A stretch of 64,000 nt of DNA. Source: Micromonospora sp. NBC_01699. Its GTDB lineage: Bacteria; Actinomycetota; Actinomycetes; Mycobacteriales; Micromonosporaceae. Below the pieces are notes generated by a model. That model had not been told where the DNA came from and searched no databases. It saw only the letters and a list, made by a program, of their open reading frames with translations. Positions within the stretch are counted from its first letter, which is position 1. Each line of letters begins with the position of its first letter. Positions 48,972-64,000 of this stretch are shown here, piece after piece. The DNA is taken from positions 4,402,001 through 4,466,000 of the forward strand of contig NZ_CP109199.1 in NCBI RefSeq assembly GCF_036250065.1. The letters are read 5' to 3'. The translations under genes and the position numbers were made by a program.

Positions 48972-49631
48972 ATGCGCGTACTGATCGTGGAGGACGAGAC
49001 GGTGCTCGCCGAGGCGACCGCGGAAGGGCTGCGCCAACAGGCGATGGCGGTGGACACCTGCGGGGACGGCGCGGTCGCCCTGGAGCTGATCAGCGTCAAC
49101 CGGTACGACGTGGTCGTCCTCGACCGGGACCTGCCCGTCGTCCACGGGGACGACGTCTGCCAGGCGATCGTCGCCGCCGGCGGCGAAACCAGGGTGATCA
49201 TGCTGACCGCCTCGGTCGAGCTGGACGACCGGGTGTACGGACTCAACATCGGCGCGGACGACTACCTGACCAAGCCATTCGCACTCGCCGAACTCATCGC
49301 CCGGGTCCAGGCACTCGGTAGACGCGCACGACCCGCACTCCCCCCGGTGCTCCGCCGGGCCGGTATCGAACTCGACGTACCCCGGCACCAGGTGTTCCGG
49401 GACGGCCGGTTCGTCGCGCTATCCCGGAAGGAGTTCGCCGTCCTGGAAGTGCTGATGCGGGCCGAGGGAGCCGCGGTCAGCGCCGAGGAACTATTGGAGA
49501 AGGCATGGGACGAGCACATCGATCCGTTCACCAACGCGGTCCGGGTGACGATAATGACGCTGCGCAAGAAACTCGGCTCCCCGTCGGTGATCGAGACACT
49601 GGCCGGCGTCGGCTACCGGCTGGGCGGCTAG
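48972..49631 (+). CDS. OmpR family response regulator
   Basis: 219 residues, ATG with AGGAG upstream. The receiver domain (1-115) has the acidic pair E7/D8, phosphoacceptor D51 (VVVLDRDLPV), the switch Thr in MLTAS and the Lys of YLTKPF. A winged-helix DNA-binding domain (about 125-219) ends FTNAVRVTIMTLRKKLGSPSVIETLAGVGYRL. It is followed at once by its kinase and lies opposite the MacB-like exporter, which is the likely target. Envelope stress or antimicrobial sensing is the usual role of this arrangement. Confidence 0.95.
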   Translation: MRVLIVEDETVLAEATAEGLRQQAMAVDTCGDGAVALELISVNRYDVVVLDRDLPVVHGDDVCQAIVAAGGETRVIMLTASVELDDRVYGLNIGADDYLTKPFALAELIARVQALGRRARPALPPVLRRAGIELDVPRHQVFRDGRFVALSRKEFAVLEVLMRAEGAAVSAEELLEKAWDEHIDPFTNAVRVTIMTLRKKLGSPSVIETLAGVGYRLGG

Positions 49632-50824
49632 CCCTGCCGCTGTCGCTGTCCCGTCGGCTCACCTTCAAGGGACACCTGGCCCTGCTCTGCGGCGGGATGT
49701 TCGTCCTCAGCGCGACCGTCCTGCTCGCGATCAACTACCTCCTGGTCCGCGCCGCCCTCCCACCGGCCGTGGCCGAGGGCGCCGAAACCGGCCACAGCGG
49801 TCCGACCTCGATCGTCCGGCCGATCGAGGCCGACACCGTCGCCGAGTACCGGATCGACGTACTGAACACGCTGCTCGCCCAGTCCAGCGTCACGCTGTCC
49901 ATCACGCTCCTGCTGGCGCTGCTGGTGGGCTGGATCGTGGCCAGCCGGATGCTCCGGCCGGTACGGGCGATGGCCGCCACCGCGCGGCGGCTCAGCGCCG
50001 ACAACCTCGACCAGCGGATCCGGATGCAGGGTCCCCGGGACGAGCTGACCGACCTCGCCGACACCTTCGACAAGATGCTCGACCGGCTCTCGGCCTCGTT
50101 CGACAGCCAGCGCCGCTTCGTCGCCAACGCCTCGCACGAACTGCGTACGCCGCTGGCGGCGCAACGCACGCTGGTCGAGGTCGCCCTGGGCCGGGACACC
50201 AGCGATCCGTCGGTACGCGACCTGTGCGGGCGCCTGCTCGCCATGAACGTACGGATCGAGTCGATGATCGAGGGGCTGCTCGTACTCGCCCGCAGTGACC
50301 GGGGCCTGGACGTCCAGGAGCCGGTCCGCCTCGACCAGGTGGCGGCCTCGGTGATCGACGCGCAACGCGGTCCGGCCGCCCGCGCCGGGCTGCGCATCCA
50401 CAGCGAGTTGACACCGCAACTGGTCGACGGGGAACGGGTGCTGCTGGAGCGGCTGGTGAACAACCTGGTCGACAACGCGATCAAGTACAACCACCCGGGC
50501 GGCCAGGTCTGGCTGCGGGTGGGCGGCGGTACGGCACTGCGGGTCGGCAACACCGGCCCGACGGTGCCGGTCACCTCCACCTCCGAGCTGTTCGAACCGT
50601 TCCGGCAGCTCCGCCGCGGCCGGGACGGCTCCGGGCACGGGGTCGGTCTGGGGCTGTCGATCGTCGCCTCGATCGCCTCGGCGCACCGGGGCTCGGTACA
50701 CGCCGACCCACGCGACGGCGGCGGCCTCGACGTCGTCGTCCGGCTGCCGCGCTCCGCGTCGGCGTCCTTCCTGCACCCTGAGGACGGACGAAGGACGTCG
50801 TCGGGCACACGGGCCCAACCCTGA
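49505..50824 (+). CDS. Sensor histidine kinase (partner of the OmpR regulator)
   Basis: The kinase has two transmembrane helices (near 49670-49740 and 49885-49940) around a short outer loop of about 50 residues. A HAMP domain (RPVRAMAATARRLSADNLDQRI), a HisKA helix with the phosphorylated His in NASHELRTPLAA (CAC at 50135-50137) and an ATPase domain (LVNNLVDNAIKYN, GVGLGLSIV) follow. The start is uncertain. The only canonical start before the first helix is ATG 49505, which overlaps the regulator gene by 127 bp. ATG 49699 falls inside the helix. A CTG around 49634, directly after the regulator stop, may be the real start. Confidence 0.85.
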   Translation: MGRAHRSVHQRGPGDDNDAAQETRLPVGDRDTGRRRLPAGRLALPLSLSRRLTFKGHLALLCGGMFVLSATVLLAINYLLVRAALPPAVAEGAETGHSGPTSIVRPIEADTVAEYRIDVLNTLLAQSSVTLSITLLLALLVGWIVASRMLRPVRAMAATARRLSADNLDQRIRMQGPRDELTDLADTFDKMLDRLSASFDSQRRFVANASHELRTPLAAQRTLVEVALGRDTSDPSVRDLCGRLLAMNVRIESMIEGLLVLARSDRGLDVQEPVRLDQVAASVIDAQRGPAARAGLRIHSELTPQLVDGERVLLERLVNNLVDNAIKYNHPGGQVWLRVGGGTALRVGNTGPTVPVTSTSELFEPFRQLRRGRDGSGHGVGLGLSIVASIASAHRGSVHADPRDGGGLDVVVRLPRSASASFLHPEDGRRTSSGTRAQP

Positions 50825-50851: not shown

Positions 50852-52339
50852 TCAGGCGCCGGGCAGCGGGCGGTCCGGGTGCTCGCAGGCGTCGGCGAGC
50901 AGGTCGACGTAGCTGGCCACCCAGGCGCGAGCGGTTCCGTCGGTGAGCCGGTCCAACGGGTACTCCAGATAGCCGTCGAGTCGGTCCGGGCCGGGTACCA
51001 GACCGAACATCAGCGCACCCCGCTCGGCGTCGGTCGGCACGTCGTGCACCCGTACGGCCAGGTCGGGCAGGTCGAGCCGCATGTCCAGGGTGTTCTGGAA
51101 CGCGAAGCTCACCATCACCCCGGCCGGCATCGCGCCGCCCGCCGGCCCGAGGAACTGCCGGTAGATCCAGGCGGTGGGCAGCAGGTTGTCGATCCCGGCG
51201 AAGAGGCCGGCGGCGGTCTGGTCGACGAGGTCGGCGAACGTCGCGGCGGCGGCCGTACGGATCCGCAGCGGCAGCGCCGTGGTCATCACGGCGACCGCCT
51301 CCTCGTACGCCCGGGGTGAGCGGTTCGCGTGTGGCACCGACAGCGTCACGTCGGGCTGTCCGCTGAGCCGGGCCAGCAGGACCGCCATCGCGGCGGCGGT
51401 CACCGCGTTCACGGTGGCGCCGCGCGCCCGGGCGAGCGCTTCGGCGGCCAGCCGGGCCCGGTCCGGGATCTCGAACCGGTGGGTGGCGGCGCGTCCGCTG
51501 GCCCGGTCCGGGGCGGGGCCGTCGAACGGCAGGTCCAGGGTGAGCGGCCCGTCGCCGAGGTGCTCGGCCCAGTGGGCGAGCCGGCGGCGTCGGGTCGGCT
51601 CGTCCCACTGCTCCCGCTGCCAGCGGGCGTATCCGGTGCACTGCGCGGCGGGCGGGCCGAGGTCGGCCACACCCCCGGTGAGCGCGCTGCGGTAGCCGGC
51701 GGCCAGGTCGCGCAGCAGGACCGAGATGGCCCAGCCGTCGCAGGCGACGTGGTGCACGACCAGGACCAGCCAGGACTCACCCGGATCGAGGCGGATCAGG
51801 GCGTACCGCAGTGGCGCCTCGGCGGCCAGCGTGAACGCCGGCTCCACCACCGCCCGGCAGGCGGCCTCGGCCCGTACCCGCGCCTGGTCGGGCGGGAGTG
51901 CGGTCAGGTCGACAACCGGCAGCGGGACCGGCCGATGGGCGATGATCCGCTGGATCCGGGTGTCGCCGTCGCGCCCGAGCCGGGCCCGGAGCGCGTGGTG
52001 CCGGGCGACCAGCCCGTCGACGGCGGCGTCGAGCGCGGCGACGTCGAGTACGCCGACCAGTTCCAGCCGCAGCCCGACGTTCCAGCCGCTGGAGTTCCCG
52101 GTCCGCTCGACGTTCTCGATCATCCGGTCCTGCTGGGCCGAGAGCGGCGCCCGCGTCACCTCACGCTCGTCGGCCGGTCCGGCCAGCCAGCGCAGAAGCT
52201 CACCCTTGTACGACCGCAGCGCCGCCACCAGCTCCGGCGTCATCACCGCCGCCGGGGCGTCGTAGCGCAGTGTGCCGTCGACGCCGGTGAGTCGTACGTC
52301 GCGGACGGCGAGGTACTCCAGGACCTCCTCGAAGGTCAC
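50852..52339 (-). CDS. Stand-alone NRPS condensation protein with TubC-type docking domain
   Basis: 495 residues, GTG overlapping the synthetase stop (GTGA). Residues 1-52 (TFEEVLEYLAVRDVRLTGVDGTLRYDAPAAVMTPELVAALRSYKGELLRWL, in pieces) match the TubC N-terminal docking domain. From about 65 a full condensation domain follows, beginning APLSAQQDRM, with the active motif HHVACDGW near 196-203 and a late-core segment NRSPRAYEEAVAVMTTALPLRI. There is no carrier, adenylation or thioesterase domain after it. It should dock on the C-terminus of the large synthetase and either join the chain to a free amine, releasing it, or pass it to a carrier protein encoded elsewhere. Confidence 0.88.
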   Translation of the reverse strand: MTFEEVLEYLAVRDVRLTGVDGTLRYDAPAAVMTPELVAALRSYKGELLRWLAGPADEREVTRAPLSAQQDRMIENVERTGNSSGWNVGLRLELVGVLDVAALDAAVDGLVARHHALRARLGRDGDTRIQRIIAHRPVPLPVVDLTALPPDQARVRAEAACRAVVEPAFTLAAEAPLRYALIRLDPGESWLVLVVHHVACDGWAISVLLRDLAAGYRSALTGGVADLGPPAAQCTGYARWQREQWDEPTRRRRLAHWAEHLGDGPLTLDLPFDGPAPDRASGRAATHRFEIPDRARLAAEALARARGATVNAVTAAAMAVLLARLSGQPDVTLSVPHANRSPRAYEEAVAVMTTALPLRIRTAAAATFADLVDQTAAGLFAGIDNLLPTAWIYRQFLGPAGGAMPAGVMVSFAFQNTLDMRLDLPDLAVRVHDVPTDAERGALMFGLVPGPDRLDGYLEYPLDRLTDGTARAWVASYVDLLADACEHPDRPLPGA

Positions 52340-55300
52340 AGCGTGCCCCGTATCCGTCCGGCGTGACCGTTGATCGCGGGTGTGGCGTGCTCGCGCAGCC
52401 GGCCGACCATGGCGGAGACGGTAGGGGCGCGGAAGAAGTCGAGCGCCGGGTACTCGACGCCGGTCGCCTCGCGTACCCGGTTGAGCAGGCGCAGGGCGTT
52501 GATCGAGTGCCCGCCGAGGGTGAAGAAGGAGGACGCGTCCCCGATCTGCTCCGGTGCCCGGTCGAGTTCGGCGGCCCAGAGCGCCCGTACCGTTTCCCCG
52601 ATGTCGTCGGTGACCTCGGCGACCGGCGGCGGCGGAGGCGGCACGGGCGCGGGCAGCGGCGGCGCCGGGCGCGGCGGCGGCACCGGCAGGGTGGGGGTGG
52701 GCAGGCCGGTACGGATCGTCGGCTCCGGCAGGCCGGCCCGGTCGAACTTGTTGTTGCCGGTCTGCGGCAGCACCGGCAGCAGCGCCCACACCCGGGGGAT
52801 GAGCACGTCGGGCAGCTCGCGGGCCATCGCCGTCACCAGCCGGTCGGCGATCCCGTCGTGCGGTACGCCCGGCGCGGGCACCACGTACCCGGCCAGGTAC
52901 ACGTCCCCGTTGTGGTCCCGACGGGCCACCACTATGCCGTCGGCGACCAGGTCCAGTCCGCGCAGTACGGCCGACGCCTCCCCCGGCTCGACCCGGTTGC
53001 CCCGGATCTTGACCTGGTCGTCGGCCCGCCCGAGGAACACGAGCACCCCGTCGGTGGTCCACCGGACCAGGTCGCCGCTGCGGTAGAAGCGGGCACCGGG
53101 TCCGCCGCCCGGATCGTCCACGAACCGTTGCGCGGTCAGCTCGGGCCGGTTCAGGTACCCGCGCCCCACCCCGGCCCCGCCGATGAACAGCTCCCCCACC
53201 GCACCGAGCGGAGCCAGGTTGCCCCGCTGGTCGCGTACCTCGACGTGGATGTTGTCCAGCGGGCGGCCGATCGGGATCGGGCCGGCGGATGCCTTCGACG
53301 CGTCGGCCACCACGTCCACCACCACGACGACCGTGGTCTCGGTCGGCCCGTAGATGTTGTGCAGCACGTACGGCAGGTCGGGGTGCGGGCGTACCCGGAG
53401 CTGCTGGCCGCCGACGGCCAGGTGGCGCAGGCGTGGCTGGGCCACGACGGGCAGCGAGAGCAGCCCCTCGCCGATCGGCGTGGGCAGCATCGCGATGGTC
53501 ACCCCGGCGGTACGCATCCAGCGGGCGAGCGCCATCGAGTCCAGGCGCACGGCGTCGTCGGCGATCGTCAGGCTGGCGCCGGCCATGAGGATCGGCCAGA
53601 TCTCCAGCATGGAGGCGTCGAAACTCTGCCCGCAGACGGCGGCGCCGCGATCGGCGGCGGTCAGCTCCAGCTTGTCGTGGTACCACCGGCACAGGTTCAG
53701 CACGCTGCGGTGGGTGATGACCGTCCCCTTCGGCCGGCCCGTCGAACCGGACGTGTAGATCACGTAACACGGCGCGTCCGGGTCGTCCGCCACCCGCGTC
53801 AGGGCGCCGCGCACGGTGGCCTCGTCCACCTCCACGTCGAGGTAGACCGGGCGGACGCCGTCGGGCAGGTCCGGCGGCTCGTTGCCCTCGGTGGTCAGCA
53901 CCACCCGGGCACCGCTGTCCGAGATCATGAAGTGCACCTGCCGGTCGTTGAGCAACGGATCCAGCGGCAGGTAGGCCGCGCCCGTACGCAGCACCGCCAG
54001 CGTGGCCACGACGAACTCCGGCGACCGGGGCAGCCACAGCGCCACGATCTCACCGGCCCCGACGCCCAGCGTGGCCAACCGGTCGGCGAGCACCGAGGCC
54101 CGCTCGTCGAGCTGCCGGTAGGTCAGCACGCTGCCGCCGCCGATCAGCGCCACGCTCTGCGATGTCCGGTGCGCCCACTGCCGTACCGCGTCGTGCAGGC
54201 AGCCCGACGGCAGCTCGCGGCGCCGGCCGGTGCCCCAGCGGGCCAGCTTCTCCCGGTCCGCGTCGAGAACGCCGACCAGCGCCGAGATCGGCGTACGGGG
54301 GTCGCGGGCCGCCGCCTCCAGGATCGCGACCAGGTACGACAGCAGCCGCTCGACGCTGCTCGAATCGAACAGGTCGGTGTCGTACTCCAACCGGCAGCCG
54401 ATCCCGTCGGCGTGGTTGGTCACGTAGAGGCTCAGGTCGACCACCGCGCGCTCGGCCCGGTGTTCCAGCGTACGGGCGCCGACGCCGGGCAGGTCAAACC
54501 GGAACGCGTCGTCGTTTTCGAACTCGACAATGGTCTGGAAGATCGGGTTCCGGCCGGGGTCCCGGACCGGCCGCACCGCGCGTACCACCGAGTCGAGCGG
54601 GACGTGCGCGTGGTCGTACCCGTCGAGTGCGGTGCCGCGTACCCGCCCGAGCAGGTCGGCGAAGGTCGGATCGCCGGACAGGTCCAGCCGCAGCGCGATC
54701 GTGTTGAGGAAGAACCCGACCACCTGTTCGGCGCCGGCCGGCCGGTCCGACACCGGTGTGCCCACTATCAGGTCGTCGGTCCGGGTGAACCGGCGCAGCG
54801 TGGCCGCGTACCCGGCCAGCATGGTCATGAACAGCGTGCTCCGGTGCTCGCCGCCGAGCCGGCGCAGTCGCATCGACAGCTCCGGGTCGAGCGTACGGCG
54901 CACCGACGCGCCGTTGCCGGCCTGCACGGTCGGGCGCGGGCGGTCCGTCGGCAGGTCCAGCACCGGCAGGTCCCCGGCCAGCCGCTCCCGCCAGTAGTCC
55001 AGCTCCGCGCCGGTGCCGGGGGCATCGCCGTTGGCGCCGCTGTCGCGGGTGCCGCTGCCGTGGGTGCCGCTGCCGTAGGCGCCGCTGGCGTGGGTGCCGC
55101 TGGCGTGGGTGCCGTTGGTGCTGGCGGCCTCCCGGTGGGCCAGGTCCAGACAGTCCAGGGGCAGATCCGGCAGGTCGGCCGGGTGCCCGGTCAGCTCCGC
55201 CCGGTACAGCGCGGACAGGTCCCGGGCCAGCACCGTCGCGGAGGTCGCGTCGAGGACTATGTGGTGGAACGAGAGCACCAGCACGTGCCGCTCGTCGGAC

Positions 55301-58300
55301 CAGCGCAGCAGCCGGCTCACGAACAGCGGGCCGGTGGCCAGGTCGAACGCGCGTCGACTCTCGGCGGCCAGGGCCGACCGTACGACGTCGTCCTCGTCCC
55401 GGCCGGTGTGCTGCTCGACGGCGAAGTCCAGGGTGCCCCGGCCGAGCACGATCTGCACCGGTTCGCCGTCCCGCTCGCGGAACACGGTACGCAGCGCGCC
55501 GTGCCGGGCCACCAGCCGTCCGAGCGCGGTGTGCAGCGCCGGCACGTCCAGCCGCCCGTCGAGTCGTACGGCGGTCGGCTCGTTGTAGGCGCCCCGGCCC
55601 GGGTTCAACCGTTCGAGGAACCACATCCGCGACTGCCCGCGCGACAACGGCCCCGACCGGTCCGGACCGACCCGCGGGCCCGCGCCCAACGCGGCCGTGT
55701 CGACGTCGACCGGCACGAGCGGTGTGGAAGCGGGCGCCGTGACAGCAGGCGGCGCGACAGCAGGCGGTCCGGCCGGCGCGGTTCGCGCCTCGTGGTAGCG
55801 GGCGCGCAGGCGGTCGAGGTGCGGCAGCCCCGCCCGCAGCTGCTCCGGCCGCACCCCGAAGTCCACCAGCGCGGCCACCTCGTCCACGCCCGCCGCCGTG
55901 AGCGCGTCGATCAGCGCGGCGCCCTGCTCGGGCGAACCGATCAGCGCGCGGGACTCGCAGTACCGGTCGTAGGCGCGCCGGAACACGTAGTCCAGGTCCT
56001 CCTCGCGGGCGTCCTGGAGGTCGACCCGGAAGCCGAGACTGTTGGTCAGCTGCCCGAACAGCGACAGCGAGGACCGCATGTACGCCCGCAGCGGCGCGAA
56101 CGCCTCGGACCGGGCCCGCCCCGAGTCCTCGCCGAGGTAGGTGTGCACGAGCACGACGACCCGGCCGCCCCGTGGGTCGAGCCCGTGCGCGGCACGGGTC
56201 TTGCGATAGCGCGCGATGTTGTCGGCCAACTGCTCCACCGACTGGCTCATCAGGTTGGTGACGATGCCGAGGTCGTGCTCGGCCGCCCGCTGGTACGACT
56301 CCGGGTTGCCGACGACCGCGACGAACATCGGTGGCACCGCCTGTACGGGGCGCGGCAGGGTGCGTACCTCGATGGTCTCGCCGGTGCCGGAGCGGCGTTG
56401 CACCGCCTCCCCTCGCCAGAGGCGTCGTACCTGGTCGAGGTGGCCGTACATGACGTCGCGGGCGGGTGCGAAATTGTCCGGGGCGAGCACGAAGTCGCCC
56501 GCGTGCCAGCCCGGCGCGCAGCCGATCCCGACCCGTCCGCCGGACAATCGGTCCACCATGGACCATTCCTCGGCGACCCGGATCGGGTCGTGCAGCGGCA
56601 GCACCACCGAGCCGGCGTGCAGCCGGATCCGGCTCGTCTCGCGGGCCAGCGCGGCGGCCAGCACCACCGGGTTGGGGAACACGCCGCCGAAGGAGTGGAA
56701 GTGCCGCTCCGGAATCCACACCGCGTGGAACCCGTGCTCGTCGGCGAACCGGGCGGTCTCGACAATCGACTCGTACGGGTCGACCGGATCCCCGTCGTCC
56801 GCCGTCGCGTCCTGCGGGTAGTCCCCGAAGAAGTACACACTGAAATCCGGCGCCGCCCGCACCACCCCCGGCTCTACCGGCTCGGTCGCCGGGAGCACCG
56901 GCACGGGTGCCGGCACGGGTGCCACGGCCGGCAGCGGTGCGGACGCGGGTACGGCGGTTACCTGCGGGCGGGTCAGGAAGCCGGCCGCGCGCATCTCCCG
57001 CAGCGAGCGTTCCACCGCGTCGATGACGGCGTCGACGTCGTCGTCGGTGTGTTCGGTGGAGAGGAAGAAGTTGCGCCACTCCCAGACGTACACGCCCTTG
57101 AGCAGCAGGTGGTGGTAGAGCAGTTCGAGGTCGGCCCGGTGCTCGAAGCGGAACTGGGAGCCGAAGTGGCCGAGCCGGACCGGATACTCGTCCTCCTCGA
57201 AGAATGCGTTCAGCGTGCCGACCAGCCGGTCGGTCCGGGTGTTGAGCGCCTGTTGCAGGTCCGGGCTCTGCTGCTTCAGCCGGGTCAGTACGGCACGGGC
57301 GGCCACCATCGACACCGGATGCTGGATGTAGGTGCCGCCGAAGAAGGTCGTCTCGCGCTCGGGGCGGCTGTCGTCGCCGTACCGCCAGAAGCCGCCGTCG
57401 ACGCCGTCCATGATGTCGGCGCGGCCGGCGATCGCCCCGATCGGGAAGCCGCCACCGAGCAGTTTGCCGTACGTGGCGAGGTCCGGGGTCACGCCGAACA
57501 GGCCCTGCGCGCCGCGCGGGTGCGGCCGGAACCCGGTCAGCATCTCGTCGAACATCAGCACGATGCCGTACCGGTGGGTGATCTCGCGCAGCCGGTGCAG
57601 GAACGCGGTCGGCTGGAGCGTGGGGTGGCGGCTCTGCACCGGCTCGACGATGACGGCGGCGAGCCGTTCGCCGAGCGCCTCGATCGTCTCCAGGGCATCC
57701 GGCGTGCCATAGTCGAGCACCACCAGGTCGGCGACGGCGCTGGCCGGGATGCCGGTGGAGACCGCGACGGTGGTCCGGTCCGCGCCGGTGCCGACCGAGC
57801 GGCCGAGCACGTTGTCGGCGTGCCCGTGGTACGACCCGTGGAACATGACTATCGTGTCGCGTCCGGTGGCGGCGCGGGCGAGCCGGATCGCGGCGGAGTT
57901 CGCCTCGGTGCCCGAGTTCGCGAACGCCACCCGTTGCATCCCGGTCAGCTCACTGAGCAGGGTGGCGGCCTCCCCGGTGTCGACGCTGCGCGGGCCGAGT
58001 TGGACGCCCCGGGACAGGTGCTCGCGTACCGCGTCCGCGACGAAGTCGGGCTCGTGGCCGAAGAGCAGCACGCCGAAGCCCATGGTGATGTCGAGGTACC
58101 GGTTGCCGTCCACGTCCTCCAGCCAGGCGCCCTTCGCGCGCTGGCCGGCGATCGGGTACAGCATCTCCTTGGTGGCGCCGCGGAACCCGACCACGGCCCG
58201 GCTGTCGGCCAGCACGCCCCGGTAGCGCTGGGCGATCTCCTTCGAACGCCGGGTCTTCGCCACGAACTGACGTTGCAGGTCCTCCACGTGGGCCCGCTGG

Positions 58301-61300
58301 CCGTCGGTGGCGACCGCGCCGGCCTGCCCCGCGCCGGGCGCCACGACCACCCTCGGCCCGTGCACCTCGGCCACCGCCGCCGGCTGCGGCGCCGGAGCCG
58401 GTTCCGCTACCTCGGGTACGACCACAGCGGCCGGCGCCTCCACCACGCGCGGCTCCACCACCGGCGCGGTCACCGGGGCGACCACCGGCACCCGGCGGGA
58501 CAGGATCAGACGGGACAGCCGGTGCGGGGTGTCCGCCTCCTCGAACAGCTCCCGCATGGCCAGCCGTACGCCGAACTCGCCCTCGAACTCCCGCAGCGCG
58601 TTGATCATCGCGAGGGAGTCGGCGCCCATCTGGAAGAACGGGCGGTGGATGTCGATGTCGGCCGGGGCGCAGCCGAGGTGCCGGGCGCTGATCTCGCGTA
58701 CCCGTTCGACCACCGGCCCGAGGTGGGGCTCGGTGGTGTCGGCGACCGCGCCGGTGCGGGTGTCGCGGCCGGTGTCAACGTCAACCATCACGCCTCCAGG
58801 GTCGGTGCGGGCCAGCGGCGGTCCGGTCCAGTGGACCCGTCGTTGGAACGGATAGGCGGGCAGCGGCACCCGGTGCCCGGCACCGGGGCCGAGCACGGCG
58901 GCCCAGTCCAGGTCGACCCCGTGTACGTGCAGCCGGGCGACCGCCTCGAAGTGCTGGTCGAGCCCGACGCCCCGGCGCTGGGCGGCGAGCACCGGCGAGC
59001 CGGGCAGCGCCGGCCGGAGCAGCCCGACCAGGCTCGGGTGCGGGCCGAGTTCCAGCACCGGGCTGCCGGCCACGCCGTCCCCGGCCGCCGCGAGCGCGGC
59101 CGTGACCAGGTCGAACCGGACCGCCGCCCGGGTCTGCCGGACCGGGTACGCCGGATCCAACCGGTGCCCGACCGGCAGTACGGTCCCGTCCATGCCGCTG
59201 ACCAGCGGGATGTCCAGCGGGGCGAGCGGGATCGCGGCGAGCACCTCGCCCAGCGGGGCGATGATCGGGTCGAGCAGGGCGGTGTGGAAGGCGCGGTTGA
59301 CGGCGAGCCGGTGCCAGCGCAGCCCACGCTCGTCCAGCCGACGGCAGGCGGCATCGATCGCCTCGACCGGCCCGGCGACGACGTGGTTCTCGGCCGCGTT
59401 GATCGCGGCCAGGTCGAGCCGCCGGTCGTCGGCGAGCAGGTCGTCGACCGCCGGTCGGGCGGCGAACACCGCGACCATCCCGCCGGGTGCGGTGTACTCG
59501 CGCATCAGCCGTCCGCGCAGTCCGGTGAGCCGCAGCCCGTCCTCGATCGACAGTGCGCCGGCCGCCGCCAGGGCCGCGTACTCGCCGACGCTGTGGCCGG
59601 CGACGAGGTGTGGCGTCACCCCGAACGACCGCCACAGTCGGGTCAGCGCGACCTGGTACGCGAACAGCGCCGGCTGGGCCACGTCGGTCTCCCAGACCGG
59701 ACCGGTACCGGCCGAGCCGTCCGCCGCCGCCGGGTCGCCCCCGGCGTCACCGAGCAGGGGCGTGAGCAGCGAGGGTCCACCGGTCCGGCGCTGGTACGCC
59801 TCGCACTCGTCCAACACCTCACGAAACCGTGGATAGCGCCGGTAGAGCGGTGCGGCCAGCCCGGCGTACGGGGTGCCCTGCCCGCCGTACACAAAAATGG
59901 GTGTGATTCCCCCGGCCGGCACCGGGCCGGCGGTCGCGACCCGGTTCGCGACCTGCCGCTGCGGCGCGGCGAGGTAGGTGTCCAACGCGTCCGCGAGCGC
60001 CGTCGGCGTCGCACCCGTCACGACCAGCCGGTGCCGCAGGTGCGGGCGGCCGAGCGCGGCGGTGCCGACCAGGTCGTCCAGGTCCGGTCCGGGGTCGGCG
60101 CGAAGGTGGTCGCGGAACCGGCCGGCGAGCGTACGCAGGCTGTCCGGGTGGTCCGCGGACAGCGGCAGCGGCACCGGATCCGGCGGGGTTCGCCGGCCCG
60201 GTGCGACCTGCCGTGGCTGTCGGGTCGACGGTGGTGGCTCTTCGAGGATCAGGTGCACGTTCGTCCCGCCGACCGCGAGCGAGGTCACCCCGGCCCGGCG
60301 CGGGCCGGGCAGGTCCGGCCAGGGCCGCGCCTCGGTCGGGATGAAGAACGGGCTGCCGGCCAGGTCCAGCGCCGGATTGGGCCGCTCGAACCCGACCAGC
60401 GGCGGAATCTCCCCGTGTTTGAGCACCAGCACCGTCTTGAGCAGGCCGGCCATTCCGGCGCAGGCGTCCAGATGGCCGATGGCGGGTTTGGCCGAGCCGA
60501 TCGCGCAGTACCCGGTCCGGTCGGTGCGTTCCCGGTACGCGGAGGTCATGCCGTCGAACTCGATCGGGTCGCCCTTGTACGTGCCGGTGCCGTGGGTCTC
60601 CAGGTAGCCGATGGTGTCGGGCGACACCCCGGCCACGTCGAGTGCGCGCAGGATGGCGCCCCGCTGCCCGGTCGCGCTCGGCGCGAGGTAGCTCAGCTTC
60701 GAGGCGCCGTCGTTGTTGACGCCGCTGCCCAGGATCACCCCGTGGATGGTGTCGCCGTCGGCGACCGCGCGGTCGTACCGTTTGAGCAGCACGGCGGCGA
60801 CCCCGTTGCCGCCGACGGTCCCGTCGGACGACGCGTCGAACGCGCGGCACCGGCCGGACCGGGACAGGATGGTGCCCTTGACGTGCCGGTAGCCGAGGAT
60901 CTGCGGGGTGTGCACCGCCGCCGCGCCGGCCAGGGCCAGGTCGGCGTCACCGGCGAGCAGCGCCTGCCCGGCCAGGTGCACCGCCACCAGCGAGGTCGAA
61001 CAGCCGGTCTGCACCGTGATCGCCGGCCCGGTGAGCCCGAGCCGGTAGGCGACCCGGGTCGCGGCGAAGTCGTTGAAGTTGCCCACGGCGACCTGGAACG
61101 CGGAGGCGAAGTCGCCCTCCCACCGGGCCTCGCCCAGGTTGTTGCGCAGGTACGTGTTGAGCGGGTACAGGTGGTAGCCGACGCCCGCGAAGATCCCCAC
61201 CCGTACGTCGGGCGGCGTCGCCGCGTACCCGCCGTTCTCCAGTGCGTGGTGACAGGTTTCCAGGAAGAGCCGGTGCTGCGGGTCGACGGTGCGCGCCTCC

Positions 61301-61566
61301 TGCGGGCTCATCCCGAAGAACTCCGCGTCGAACGAGTCGATGTCGTCGAGCACCCCGCTGACCGCCACGAAGTCGGGTGACTCGCGTACCGACGCAGGTA
61401 TCCCGGCACCGGCCAGCTCCGCCGGGCCGAACCTCCGTACGCTGGTCACGCCGCTACGGATGTTGTGCCAGTAGCCCTCGGGCGTGTCCGCGCCGGGCAG
61501 CCGGAACGCCATCCCGACGATCGCTATCCGCCGGTCGTCGGTGCTGCCGTACATCGTGTCCCTCAT
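52336..61566 (-). CDS. Hybrid PKS-NRPS: KS-AT-ACP-AMT-MOX-C-A-PCP
   Basis: 3076 residues. KS (about 12-455) has C189 in TGCSTSL, H325 in ETHGTGT and GHLDA. AT (about 545-880) has S659 in GHSVGE and NRAFHTALLD, suggesting malonyl-CoA. ACP has S984 in GADSL. A class III aminotransferase (about 1115-1530) has PLP lysine K1368 in GKLLGGG. A luciferase-like monooxygenase (about 1572-1925) reads FSVYFFGDYPQD, IPERHFHSFGG and IGCAPGWHAGDF. C domain (about 1972-2445) has HHIVLDA at 2101-2107. A domain (about 2455-2940) has YTSGSTGRPKG and YGPTETT. A proline-rich linker precedes PCP with S3021 in GGHSI. KS-AT-ACP-AMT-monooxygenase is the microginin-type order that makes a 3-amino-2-hydroxy acyl chain, which C then attaches to the amino acid activated by A. 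No loading or release domain is present. Confidence 0.95.
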   Translation of the reverse strand: MRDTMYGSTDDRRIAIVGMAFRLPGADTPEGYWHNIRSGVTSVRRFGPAELAGAGIPASVRESPDFVAVSGVLDDIDSFDAEFFGMSPQEARTVDPQHRLFLETCHHALENGGYAATPPDVRVGIFAGVGYHLYPLNTYLRNNLGEARWEGDFASAFQVAVGNFNDFAATRVAYRLGLTGPAITVQTGCSTSLVAVHLAGQALLAGDADLALAGAAAVHTPQILGYRHVKGTILSRSGRCRAFDASSDGTVGGNGVAAVLLKRYDRAVADGDTIHGVILGSGVNNDGASKLSYLAPSATGQRGAILRALDVAGVSPDTIGYLETHGTGTYKGDPIEFDGMTSAYRERTDRTGYCAIGSAKPAIGHLDACAGMAGLLKTVLVLKHGEIPPLVGFERPNPALDLAGSPFFIPTEARPWPDLPGPRRAGVTSLAVGGTNVHLILEEPPPSTRQPRQVAPGRRTPPDPVPLPLSADHPDSLRTLAGRFRDHLRADPGPDLDDLVGTAALGRPHLRHRLVVTGATPTALADALDTYLAAPQRQVANRVATAGPVPAGGITPIFVYGGQGTPYAGLAAPLYRRYPRFREVLDECEAYQRRTGGPSLLTPLLGDAGGDPAAADGSAGTGPVWETDVAQPALFAYQVALTRLWRSFGVTPHLVAGHSVGEYAALAAAGALSIEDGLRLTGLRGRLMREYTAPGGMVAVFAARPAVDDLLADDRRLDLAAINAAENHVVAGPVEAIDAACRRLDERGLRWHRLAVNRAFHTALLDPIIAPLGEVLAAIPLAPLDIPLVSGMDGTVLPVGHRLDPAYPVRQTRAAVRFDLVTAALAAAGDGVAGSPVLELGPHPSLVGLLRPALPGSPVLAAQRRGVGLDQHFEAVARLHVHGVDLDWAAVLGPGAGHRVPLPAYPFQRRVHWTGPPLARTDPGGVMVDVDTGRDTRTGAVADTTEPHLGPVVERVREISARHLGCAPADIDIHRPFFQMGADSLAMINALREFEGEFGVRLAMRELFEEADTPHRLSRLILSRRVPVVAPVTAPVVEPRVVEAPAAVVVPEVAEPAPAPQPAAVAEVHGPRVVVAPGAGQAGAVATDGQRAHVEDLQRQFVAKTRRSKEIAQRYRGVLADSRAVVGFRGATKEMLYPIAGQRAKGAWLEDVDGNRYLDITMGFGVLLFGHEPDFVADAVREHLSRGVQLGPRSVDTGEAATLLSELTGMQRVAFANSGTEANSAAIRLARAATGRDTIVMFHGSYHGHADNVLGRSVGTGADRTTVAVSTGIPASAVADLVVLDYGTPDALETIEALGERLAAVIVEPVQSRHPTLQPTAFLHRLREITHRYGIVLMFDEMLTGFRPHPRGAQGLFGVTPDLATYGKLLGGGFPIGAIAGRADIMDGVDGGFWRYGDDSRPERETTFFGGTYIQHPVSMVAARAVLTRLKQQSPDLQQALNTRTDRLVGTLNAFFEEDEYPVRLGHFGSQFRFEHRADLELLYHHLLLKGVYVWEWRNFFLSTEHTDDDVDAVIDAVERSLREMRAAGFLTRPQVTAVPASAPLPAVAPVPAPVPVLPATEPVEPGVVRAAPDFSVYFFGDYPQDATADDGDPVDPYESIVETARFADEHGFHAVWIPERHFHSFGGVFPNPVVLAAALARETSRIRLHAGSVVLPLHDPIRVAEEWSMVDRLSGGRVGIGCAPGWHAGDFVLAPDNFAPARDVMYGHLDQVRRLWRGEAVQRRSGTGETIEVRTLPRPVQAVPPMFVAVVGNPESYQRAAEHDLGIVTNLMSQSVEQLADNIARYRKTRAAHGLDPRGGRVVVLVHTYLGEDSGRARSEAFAPLRAYMRSSLSLFGQLTNSLGFRVDLQDAREEDLDYVFRRAYDRYCESRALIGSPEQGAALIDALTAAGVDEVAALVDFGVRPEQLRAGLPHLDRLRARYHEARTAPAGPPAVAPPAVTAPASTPLVPVDVDTAALGAGPRVGPDRSGPLSRGQSRMWFLERLNPGRGAYNEPTAVRLDGRLDVPALHTALGRLVARHGALRTVFRERDGEPVQIVLGRGTLDFAVEQHTGRDEDDVVRSALAAESRRAFDLATGPLFVSRLLRWSDERHVLVLSFHHIVLDATSATVLARDLSALYRAELTGHPADLPDLPLDCLDLAHREAASTNGTHASGTHASGAYGSGTHGSGTRDSGANGDAPGTGAELDYWRERLAGDLPVLDLPTDRPRPTVQAGNGASVRRTLDPELSMRLRRLGGEHRSTLFMTMLAGYAATLRRFTRTDDLIVGTPVSDRPAGAEQVVGFFLNTIALRLDLSGDPTFADLLGRVRGTALDGYDHAHVPLDSVVRAVRPVRDPGRNPIFQTIVEFENDDAFRFDLPGVGARTLEHRAERAVVDLSLYVTNHADGIGCRLEYDTDLFDSSSVERLLSYLVAILEAAARDPRTPISALVGVLDADREKLARWGTGRRRELPSGCLHDAVRQWAHRTSQSVALIGGGSVLTYRQLDERASVLADRLATLGVGAGEIVALWLPRSPEFVVATLAVLRTGAAYLPLDPLLNDRQVHFMISDSGARVVLTTEGNEPPDLPDGVRPVYLDVEVDEATVRGALTRVADDPDAPCYVIYTSGSTGRPKGTVITHRSVLNLCRWYHDKLELTAADRGAAVCGQSFDASMLEIWPILMAGASLTIADDAVRLDSMALARWMRTAGVTIAMLPTPIGEGLLSLPVVAQPRLRHLAVGGQQLRVRPHPDLPYVLHNIYGPTETTVVVVVDVVADASKASAGPIPIGRPLDNIHVEVRDQRGNLAPLGAVGELFIGGAGVGRGYLNRPELTAQRFVDDPGGGPGARFYRSGDLVRWTTDGVLVFLGRADDQVKIRGNRVEPGEASAVLRGLDLVADGIVVARRDHNGDVYLAGYVVPAPGVPHDGIADRLVTAMARELPDVLIPRVWALLPVLPQTGNNKFDRAGLPEPTIRTGLPTPTLPVPPPRPAPPLPAPVPPPPPPVAEVTDDIGETVRALWAAELDRAPEQIGDASSFFTLGGHSINALRLLNRVREATGVEYPALDFFRAPTVSAMVGRLREHATPAINGHAGRIRGTL

Positions 61567-62816
61567 TTCGCCGGCCGCCGCCGGATCGACAGCGCGGCCA
61601 CCATGACCAGGGCAATCAGCACCGCGAGGCCGTGGAACGTGGTGACCACGGTCAGCGGGGTGAGGCGTTCCAGCAGGAACGAGCAGGCCACCATGCCGAT
61701 GCCGAAGCCGAGGTTCTCCGCCATCGCGGAGAAGCCGAAGACGTACCCGCGCTGCTCGTCGGGGGCGGCCTGCAACCGGCTGTTGTACGCGATCTCGGTG
61801 AAGCCGTCCGCCACACCGGCGATGGCGGCGACCAGAATCGCCAGCGGCAACGGCGGTGCGGTGAAGGTGAGGATGAACGCGGCCGACATGAGCGCGGCGC
61901 CGAGCGCGAACGCCCGCTCGTCGATGGTCCGACCGGTACGACCCGCCCAGGCGGCGACGGCCCGCTGGGCGACGATGTTGCCGATCGCCCAGGTGGCCCA
62001 GAACTGCGACACGAAGGCGGCCGGGTGCTCCGGGTCGAGCGCGGTGGAGAACACCGGCAGGCCGACGTTGTGCGACGCCGACCCGAACGCGTCGATGGCA
62101 CGCAGACTGATCAGGGCGAGCAGGATCGGGGTCAGCCGCAGGTAGCGCAGGGCGGTGAGCTGTGCCGCGAGCACCCCCGGTGCCTTTTGCGCCCCGCCCG
62201 ACCCGGCTTTCGCCTCGGTGCGGCGGGTGGTGATCGGCAGTCGGGCCAGGTTCGCGGCCGAGAAGAGGAACGCCCCGGCGTCGATGAGGAACGCGCCGGA
62301 GTAGCCGACCGTGGCGATGAGTAGACCGGCCGAGGCGAATCCCGCCACCATCGCGATCGAGCGGCCGGTGGCGAGCAGCGCGTTGGCGCGTACCCGCTGG
62401 TCCTGACCGACGATTTCGGGGATGCTGCTGCGCAGCGCGACGCTGGTGAGGGTGGCGCCGGTGCCGGTGACGACCGCGACGAGGTAGAGCAGCCCGGCCT
62501 GGGACGCGGCCGGCGCGAGCACCAGCCCGATCAGGGCGAGCGCCTGGGTGACATCGGAGATCACCATGATCCGCTTGCGGTCGAGCCGGGAGACGAGGCT
62601 GCCGGCGCCGAAGCCGGCGAGCACGCTCGTGGCGAGGCGCAGCGCCATGATCAGCCCGGTCTGCAACGCGCTGCCGGTCAGCGAGTACGCGAACAGGTTG
62701 AGCGCCACCATGTCCAGGTAGCTGCCGTACGCCGAGACGGCGTTGCCGACCACCAGGAACCGGAAGTGCCGCATCCCGTCCCGCGTACGCCCGGCGCCTC
62801 GATCCAGGATCGTCAC
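61563..62816 (-). CDS. MFS transporter, probable exporter of the synthetase product
   Basis: 417 residues with about twelve hydrophobic helices, starting FRFLVVGNAVSAYGSYLDMVALNLFAYSLTGSALQTGLIMALR, the pattern of the MFS_3/enterobactin-exporter-like group. The motif between helices 2 and 3 reads GSLVSRLDRKRIMVISD. The start is GTG 62816, with ATG 62774 as an in-frame alternative. It is the first gene of the biosynthetic operon and overlaps the synthetase start by 4 bp (ATGA), which argues for export of, and self-protection against, the peptide product. Confidence 0.9.
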   Translation of the reverse strand: MTILDRGAGRTRDGMRHFRFLVVGNAVSAYGSYLDMVALNLFAYSLTGSALQTGLIMALRLATSVLAGFGAGSLVSRLDRKRIMVISDVTQALALIGLVLAPAASQAGLLYLVAVVTGTGATLTSVALRSSIPEIVGQDQRVRANALLATGRSIAMVAGFASAGLLIATVGYSGAFLIDAGAFLFSAANLARLPITTRRTEAKAGSGGAQKAPGVLAAQLTALRYLRLTPILLALISLRAIDAFGSASHNVGLPVFSTALDPEHPAAFVSQFWATWAIGNIVAQRAVAAWAGRTGRTIDERAFALGAALMSAAFILTFTAPPLPLAILVAAIAGVADGFTEIAYNSRLQAAPDEQRGYVFGFSAMAENLGFGIGMVACSFLLERLTPLTVVTTFHGLAVLIALVMVAALSIRRRPAK

Positions 62817-63919: not shown

Positions 63920-64000
63920 TCACTCGGATTCCGTAATGTATTGATTTCCGCCGGCCTGATAAACGGTTCCGTTGGACCAGGCCGTCATGGCCACGGCGCC
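63920..64000 (-). CDS. Possible C-terminal fragment of an unknown gene (runs off window end)
   Basis: The leftward frame entering from the right edge gives 26 residues, ending TVYQAGGNQYITESE and a TGA at 63920-63922. The Val-Tyr-Gln-Ala-Gly-x-Asn-Gln tail resembles short segments seen at the ends of several actinobacterial proteins. Too little is present to assign a function, and it may be chance. Confidence 0.3.
   Translation of the reverse strand, partial: GAVAMTAWSNGTVYQAGGNQYITESE

Follow-up and report, generated by a model that had tools for sequence, protein, structure and literature searches.

A compact Micromonospora PKS-NRPS unit predicted to make 3-amino-2-hydroxyacyl peptides

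The three-gene unit and its predicted head group

A 64,000-nucleotide (nt) stretch of Micromonospora sp. NBC_01699 (contig NZ_CP109199.1, positions 4,402,001 to 4,466,000; hereafter the window, whose numbering is used throughout) contains three minus-strand genes encoding a major facilitator superfamily (MFS) exporter, a hybrid polyketide synthase-nonribosomal peptide synthetase (PKS-NRPS) and a stand-alone condensation protein. Successive genes overlap by 4 nt: the exporter stop codon and the synthetase ATG share ATGA, and the synthetase stop codon and the GTG of the condensation gene share GTGA. We propose that this unit forms a compact assembly line for a small peptide with an N-terminal 3-amino-2-hydroxyacyl group, whose likeliest role is that of a metallo-aminopeptidase inhibitor resembling bestatin, amastatin and phebestin. 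The probability of this reading is put at about 0.6.

The exporter (61563..62816) has 417 amino acids, a GTG start and a match to PF07690 (E 1.8e-31); in the PHROGs collection, it matches an unknown family only. The synthetase (52336..61566; 3076 amino acids) is assigned by Pfam and NCBIfam, with strong E-values for the ketosynthase (KS), acyltransferase (AT), two carriers, class-III aminotransferase (AMT), Bac_luciferase, Condensation and AMP-binding domains. The KS (60187..61536; C189 in QTGCSTS) lies near the N-terminus with nothing resembling a loading domain before it, and is followed by the AT (59011..59898), whose GHSVG (S659) and RAFH motifs we take to indicate the malonyl type. An acyl carrier protein (ACP; 58462..58701; S984 in GADSL) precedes the pyridoxal phosphate-dependent AMT (56977..58266; K1368 in TYGKLLGG; PF00202, E 6.8e-51) and the luciferase-like monooxygenase (LLM; 55792..56844), which scores 445 bits against TIGR04020, above the cut-off of 244. 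The NRPS module comprises a first condensation domain (C1; 54247..55596; HHIVLDA), an adenylation (A) domain matched by AMP-binding Pfam models (52717..54201) and a peptidyl carrier protein (PCP; 52387..52611; S3021 in GGHSI) that closes the synthetase. A motif script reads the ten-residue A-domain code as D-A-L-M-A-G-I-V-V-K, which is hydrophobic. The last gene (50852..52339) encodes a 495-amino-acid protein with a GTG start, a TubC_N docking domain (PF18563, E 5.8e-9) and a condensation domain with an intact HHVACDG motif (PF00668, E 2.9e-46); Pfam finds no A, PCP or thioesterase match in it. The coordinates, gene order and domains given by an earlier, sequence-only reading of this DNA are thereby borne out, every domain it claimed having a Pfam or NCBIfam match, and the five residues it cited (C189, S659, S984, K1368 and S3021) all lie in the expected motifs.

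The domain order, in which KS-AT-ACP is followed by a class-III aminotransferase, a TIGR04020-type monooxygenase and then C-A-PCP, is of the kind found in puwainaphycin and microginin synthesis. The nearest solved structure to the AMT is the mycosubtilin MycA aminotransferase (6kfm, E 6.4e-128), and the nearest to the LLM is PuwE (6ket, E 5.2e-111), and homology thus gives the predicted head group a sound basis. The catalytic lysine, K1368, is invariant in all four aligned sequences, and its TYGK motif occurs in each of the 83 collected aminotransferase stretches. Beta-amination and alpha-hydroxylation of the ketide by the AMT and LLM are well supported by these relationships. Together with the domain order, the closest relatives, PuwE and MycA, support the earlier prediction of a 3-amino-2-hydroxyacyl group, here linked to one amino acid; this head-group chemistry is likely, and the product class is plausible. 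Six sister loci match KS, LLM, C and A but show no AMT match (L044, L045, L046, L047, L049 and L051) and would be predicted to make an alpha-hydroxy-beta-keto unit; L048 resembles them, but its contig stops upstream of the LLM.

Whereas the domain identities and intact motifs are observed, the reactions, starter, amino acid, acceptor and bioactivity of the pathway below are proposals. The KS would accept a short acyl starter that is already made and arrives as acyl-CoA or acyl-ACP, and the AT would bring malonate for a single elongation to a 3-oxoacyl-ACP. The aminotransferase would replace the 3-oxo by a 3-amino group and the flavin monooxygenase would hydroxylate carbon 2, after which C1 would couple the 3-amino-2-hydroxyacyl group to a single hydrophobic amino acid carried by the PCP. 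Domain logic and the precedent of Kj12C suggest that the TubC_N-C protein would then dock on the PCP and its terminal condensation domain (C2) would release the chain by transferring it to a free amine or amino acid, leaving the MFS protein to export the product.

A conserved family with unusual ends

Two genomes from the window's taxonomic family (G386 and G347) hold the same unit, with 68-90% identity in each domain, while the genes flanking it give only weak, partial matches there, and it is therefore not a chance set of open reading frames. An alignment scan of species genomes with the AMT-LLM pair returned 98 relatives, and among the best 80 of these 98, which were retained, 64 are titled Streptomyces. 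Where the contig is long enough, the usual layout is MFS, KS-AT-ACP and AMT-LLM-C-A-PCP-C. Fifty-one loci span the full unit, in that their sequence reaches more than 9 kb upstream from where the monooxygenase starts and more than 7.5 kb downstream from where it ends. They contain matches to KS, AT, AMT and C1 in 51/51 cases, to A in 50/51, and to the MFS exporter, located upstream of the synthetase, and the terminal C in 49/51 each; L081 and L107 are the two without an MFS match. These counts were made at E 1e-20, a threshold unsuited to ACP and PCP, which become visible at E 1e-5. The compactness previously remarked upon, with three overlapping genes and their own exporter, is thus real, and compactness is a trait of the family. 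No further gene group recurs in more than eight loci around the unit, as judged from crude gene calls. A-domain codes across the family are related and hydrophobic-looking, with the qualification that, of the 82 rows read by the motif script, nine gave no code, ten gave an incomplete code and a few others seem mis-registered.

The family is common. Among 199 genomes of the genus of Streptomyces olivoreticuli ATCC 31159, 39 match the window AMT-LLM at E 1e-180 or better, a figure that counts the AMT-LLM pair and not the whole unit; in ten of the 39 the listed segment spans the AMT alone, and the adjoining monooxygenase is listed for eight of those ten. In the window's own taxonomic order, TIGR04020 is present at E 1e-60 or better in 39 of 397 genomes. 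AMT presence was checked in 30 loci returned among these TIGR04020 matches: the window's locus and L020, L021, L028 and L030 carry a close AMT-LLM pair (AMT 63-100% identical), and L037 carries a more distant one (45%). The window unit is, by its sequence relationships, a member of a large actinomycete family, and the copies in G386 and G347, the Streptomyces relatives and the 39/199 count rule out an isolated oddity. A different NRPS design occurs in the same order, with TIGR04020 between two adenylation-domain pieces (A-LLM-A; L009, L010, L014 and L034). A short contig titled Archangium sp., a metagenome-assembled genome, encodes an AMT that is 73% identical (L054), which reflects either mis-binning or transfer.

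No loading domain precedes the KS in the window or in most relatives (55 of the 60 loci with a located exporter and KS, window and its two kin included). In these 55 loci the gap between MFS and KS is at most 246 nt, which leaves no space for a loader; in the other five (L079, L083, L086, L090 and L105) it is 3.7-4.9 kb. A tblastn search with five AMP-binding queries over the window and 18 kb beyond (82 kb) returned the NRPS A domain as its single match. A starter-loading ligase is therefore not encoded nearby, which rules out a hidden loading enzyme in the window, and the fatty acyl-AMP ligase (FAAL) that begins microginin and puwainaphycin synthesis was likewise not found in those 82 kb. A quick tree of 73 KS rows places the window inside a 57-row clade (SH-aLRT 98). 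Pfam analysis of N-terminal loaders, which covered seven of the ten loci first listed (all except L086, L105 and L051), identified an AMP-binding domain before the KS in L079, L081, L083, L090, L107, L046 and L047, all seven outside the window's clade. L045 belongs to the clade despite lacking an AMT match; L044 lacks one too and, with an MFS gene next to its KS, lies outside the clade. In the actinomycete relatives L081, L083, L090 and L107 the loader is an AMP-binding-KR-carrier arrangement, a layout that available descriptions of cyanobacterial relatives tie to alpha-keto-acid starters or Athmu-type residues. Given these results, the KS domains of the window's clade most likely take acyl-CoA or acyl-ACP starters directly.

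The terminal condensation domain is the second distinctive feature. In a tree of 85 C1 and 77 C2 domains, chosen partly by position and partly for their resemblance to C1 and C2 of the window, a single branch with support of 100 separates the two kinds. The fused or split state of C2 changed at least five times over the tree, and 19 of 76 rows are split (L121 left out). These two results identify the window's lone C protein, at the level of sequence, as the counterpart of the C domain that most other loci carry fused after the PCP. A decayed remnant of a longer NRPS can be rejected, as the protein keeps HHxxxDG, matches the last domain elsewhere and belongs to one clade. In all 77 loci with a C2, the reading frame ends within 35 residues of the C2 match (L073 being cut by the contig end), so no thioesterase is fused behind it. 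Pfam likewise gave no thioesterase, the domain that releases puwainaphycin, for any of the three window genes; no search was made for thioesterases encoded separately. The window protein instead has the make-up of a rhabdopeptide-type releasing enzyme, in which a docking domain at the N-terminus precedes a stand-alone C domain, here with HHVACDG. In the accessible text on Kj12C, such a protein hands the carrier (T)-bound chain to a free amine (PMC6195595). This precedent and the conserved, intact terminal C without a fused thioesterase make transfer to an amine or amino acid the best-supported mode of release, and by analogy the window's terminal C probably acts in this way.

Several neighbouring genes lie outside the unit. 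A SARP-type regulator (BTAD) on the exporter's strand lies upstream of the exporter (63920-64000, continuing to L038:2993), and an NB-ARC/TPR protein lies past it (L038:5172-7319). Distant matches to both (26% and 30% identity) lie near the unit copy of G386, and the two are possible cluster regulators. Two FecCD-type iron-siderophore permease genes (L038:12180-14304) are found about 11 kb from the exporter. On the plus strand, a response regulator and histidine kinase pair (48972-50824) converges on the C gene; the retrieved flanks of the G386 and G347 copies show no match to either gene. A 3005-amino-acid open frame antisense to the synthetase (52363-61380, plus strand) is probably a by-product of high G+C codon bias.

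Product class and rival readings

The aminopeptidase-inhibitor label, which is taken from the head group alone, is plausible, if less secure than the head-group chemistry, and can be set beside one producer. A family locus (L106) is present in S. olivoreticuli ATCC 31159, which a cited title names as a bestatin producer. This genome contains exactly one TIGR04020 match over the cut-off, inside the family locus, and a second of 136 bits, below it. The excerpted text of PMC12285730 gives bestatin as 3-amino-2-hydroxy-4-phenylbutanoyl-leucine and amastatin as 3-amino-2-hydroxy-5-methylhexanoyl-Val-Val-Asp. Exactly these head groups would arise by the chemistry proposed above if phenylacetyl or isovaleryl served as starter and were extended with malonate. 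A counter-candidate is leucine-like chain extension. In ATCC 31159, 2-isopropylmalate synthase (LeuA), citramalate synthase, HMG-CoA lyase, an HMGL-like protein (L139, family not assigned), LeuC and aconitase are each encoded once, so no dedicated leucine-type extension set is evident, leaving promiscuous primary enzymes as a possible source.

A number of observations weigh against an aminopeptidase inhibitor assembled and released as proposed. Because about one in five genomes of the genus (39/199) holds an AMT-LLM relative, a single producer is weak evidence, and at a base rate of roughly 20% its family locus is only suggestive. Bestatin is a dipeptide with a free leucine end, which suits hydrolysis better than release by a terminal C, and amastatin requires more residues than one module delivers. 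The crude gene calls reveal neither an aminopeptidase nor any other conserved neighbour that might confer self-resistance, and the A-domain code goes no further than a hydrophobic reading. The terminal domain is not uniform: HHxxxD was not found in the matched C2 stretch of three Streptacidiphilus loci (L065, L069 and L070), L107 ends at C1 with no A match, and the last C of L090 matched the C1 query alone, these last two being the full-span loci without a C2 match (2/51). In the three Streptacidiphilus loci the C2 match also lies more than 1 kb from the PCP. In the open-access literature searched, outside which most subscription journals lie, no product was found for any family member and no paper on a bestatin or amastatin gene cluster was found.

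Among the alternatives, the most durable is that the amino-hydroxy unit is correctly predicted and serves another purpose, such as metal chelation, signalling or antibiosis; we regard this as possible, at well short of even odds. The exporter weakly resembles the enterobactin exporter EntS (72 bits, far under the cut-off of 324), the FecCD siderophore permeases lie about 11 kb away, and relatives in about a fifth of a genus may indicate a general function. The FecCD genes, however, lie outside the conserved unit, and the 2-hydroxy-3-amino acyl head is common to bestatin and amastatin. Release as a linear, bestatin-like free acid, with C2 acting as a hydrolase or an unlinked thioesterase cutting the chain and C2 otherwise employed, is unlikely. 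It would agree with bestatin being a free-acid dipeptide, as the available part of PMC12285730 describes it, and with the family locus of the bestatin producer, whereas HHxxxD is kept in 74 of 77 C2 domains and, as described above, neither the window genes nor the frames behind C2 revealed a thioesterase. Ring closure by the terminal C, with the 3-amino or 2-hydroxy group attacking the PCP thioester to give a seven-membered lactam or a morpholinedione, is the least probable. In its favour, the chain bears its own free amine and hydroxyl, and no conserved neighbouring gene group could supply an external amine; against it, the nearest functional precedent with a docked stand-alone C uses an external amine.

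A broader proposal builds on the aminopeptidase-inhibitor reading and is, in our estimate, doubtful. The loaderless, terminal-C three-gene unit might be a general actinomycete route to bestatin-, amastatin- and phebestin-type inhibitors, including bestatin itself in ATCC 31159; the terminal C would set the last residue from free amino acids, and fission and fusion of one compact scaffold would have given rise to a large family of inhibitors yet to be explored. Bestatin itself has been tested clinically as a drug. Should the family be the source of such compounds, a large share of Streptomyces would hold a pathway for aminopeptidase inhibitors that takes up about 12 kb and could be cloned in one piece. 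Otherwise, a PKS-NRPS unit that is very common, and unusual in both its start and its release step, awaits its product.

Comparison with known systems

The sequence-only reading likened the unit to microginin and iturin systems, an analogy that stands for the domain order and head group and gives way at both ends, where the window has no fatty-acyl ligase start and a terminal C in the place of the puwainaphycin thioesterase. In the iturin/mycosubtilin synthetase MycA, whose aminotransferase is the closest solved relative of the window AMT, alpha-hydroxylation is not known. MycA combines FAAL, PKS, aminotransferase and NRPS in one protein, in the descriptions available, and starts with the FAAL, which the window lacks. 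A Planktothrix agardhii plasmid (L134) encodes FAAL, ACP and KS-AT-ACP-AMT-C-A-PCP adjoining DISARM defence genes; with no matched monooxygenase, it was dropped as a yardstick for microginin.

The microginin mic cluster is compared by description only. In the portion of PMC12250027 available, its KS-AT-ACP-aminotransferase, an order shared with the window, makes a beta-amino-alpha-hydroxydecanoyl unit, and the product class inhibits aminopeptidases. The same text gives mic about 30 kb, eight genes, a FAAL and ACP start and two to six NRPS modules; the window unit differs in having one NRPS module, no FAAL and a terminal C. In the excerpt of PMC4219810, puwainaphycin PuwE unites PKS, AMT, Ox and NRPS in one protein and is assigned the 3-amino-2-hydroxyacyl unit carried by the product. 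Its order of PKS module, aminotransferase, monooxygenase and NRPS module is that of the window synthetase, whereas the FAAL and ACP fatty-acid start and the cyclising thioesterase described for puwainaphycin are without counterpart in the window genes.

For chain release, the nearest likeness is to rhabdopeptide Kj12C, a stand-alone C protein with a docking domain, although its upstream enzymes are unlike those of the window and its acceptor, in the text consulted, is mostly phenylethylamine (PMC6195595). A protein of this design has already been tabulated. Milano et al. (2013) list the S. griseus protein G0PR31 as PLP1-Luc-C-HxxPF-CP-C in the table available (PMC3870968). Because of this entry and the AMT-monooxygenase relatives in 39/199 genomes, the earlier suggestion that the system may be undescribed can hold for its product only. 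The domain description of G0PR31 agrees with that of the second protein in Streptomyces versions of the unit and joins AMT to the last C in one protein, whereas in the window KS to PCP form one protein and the last C stands apart.

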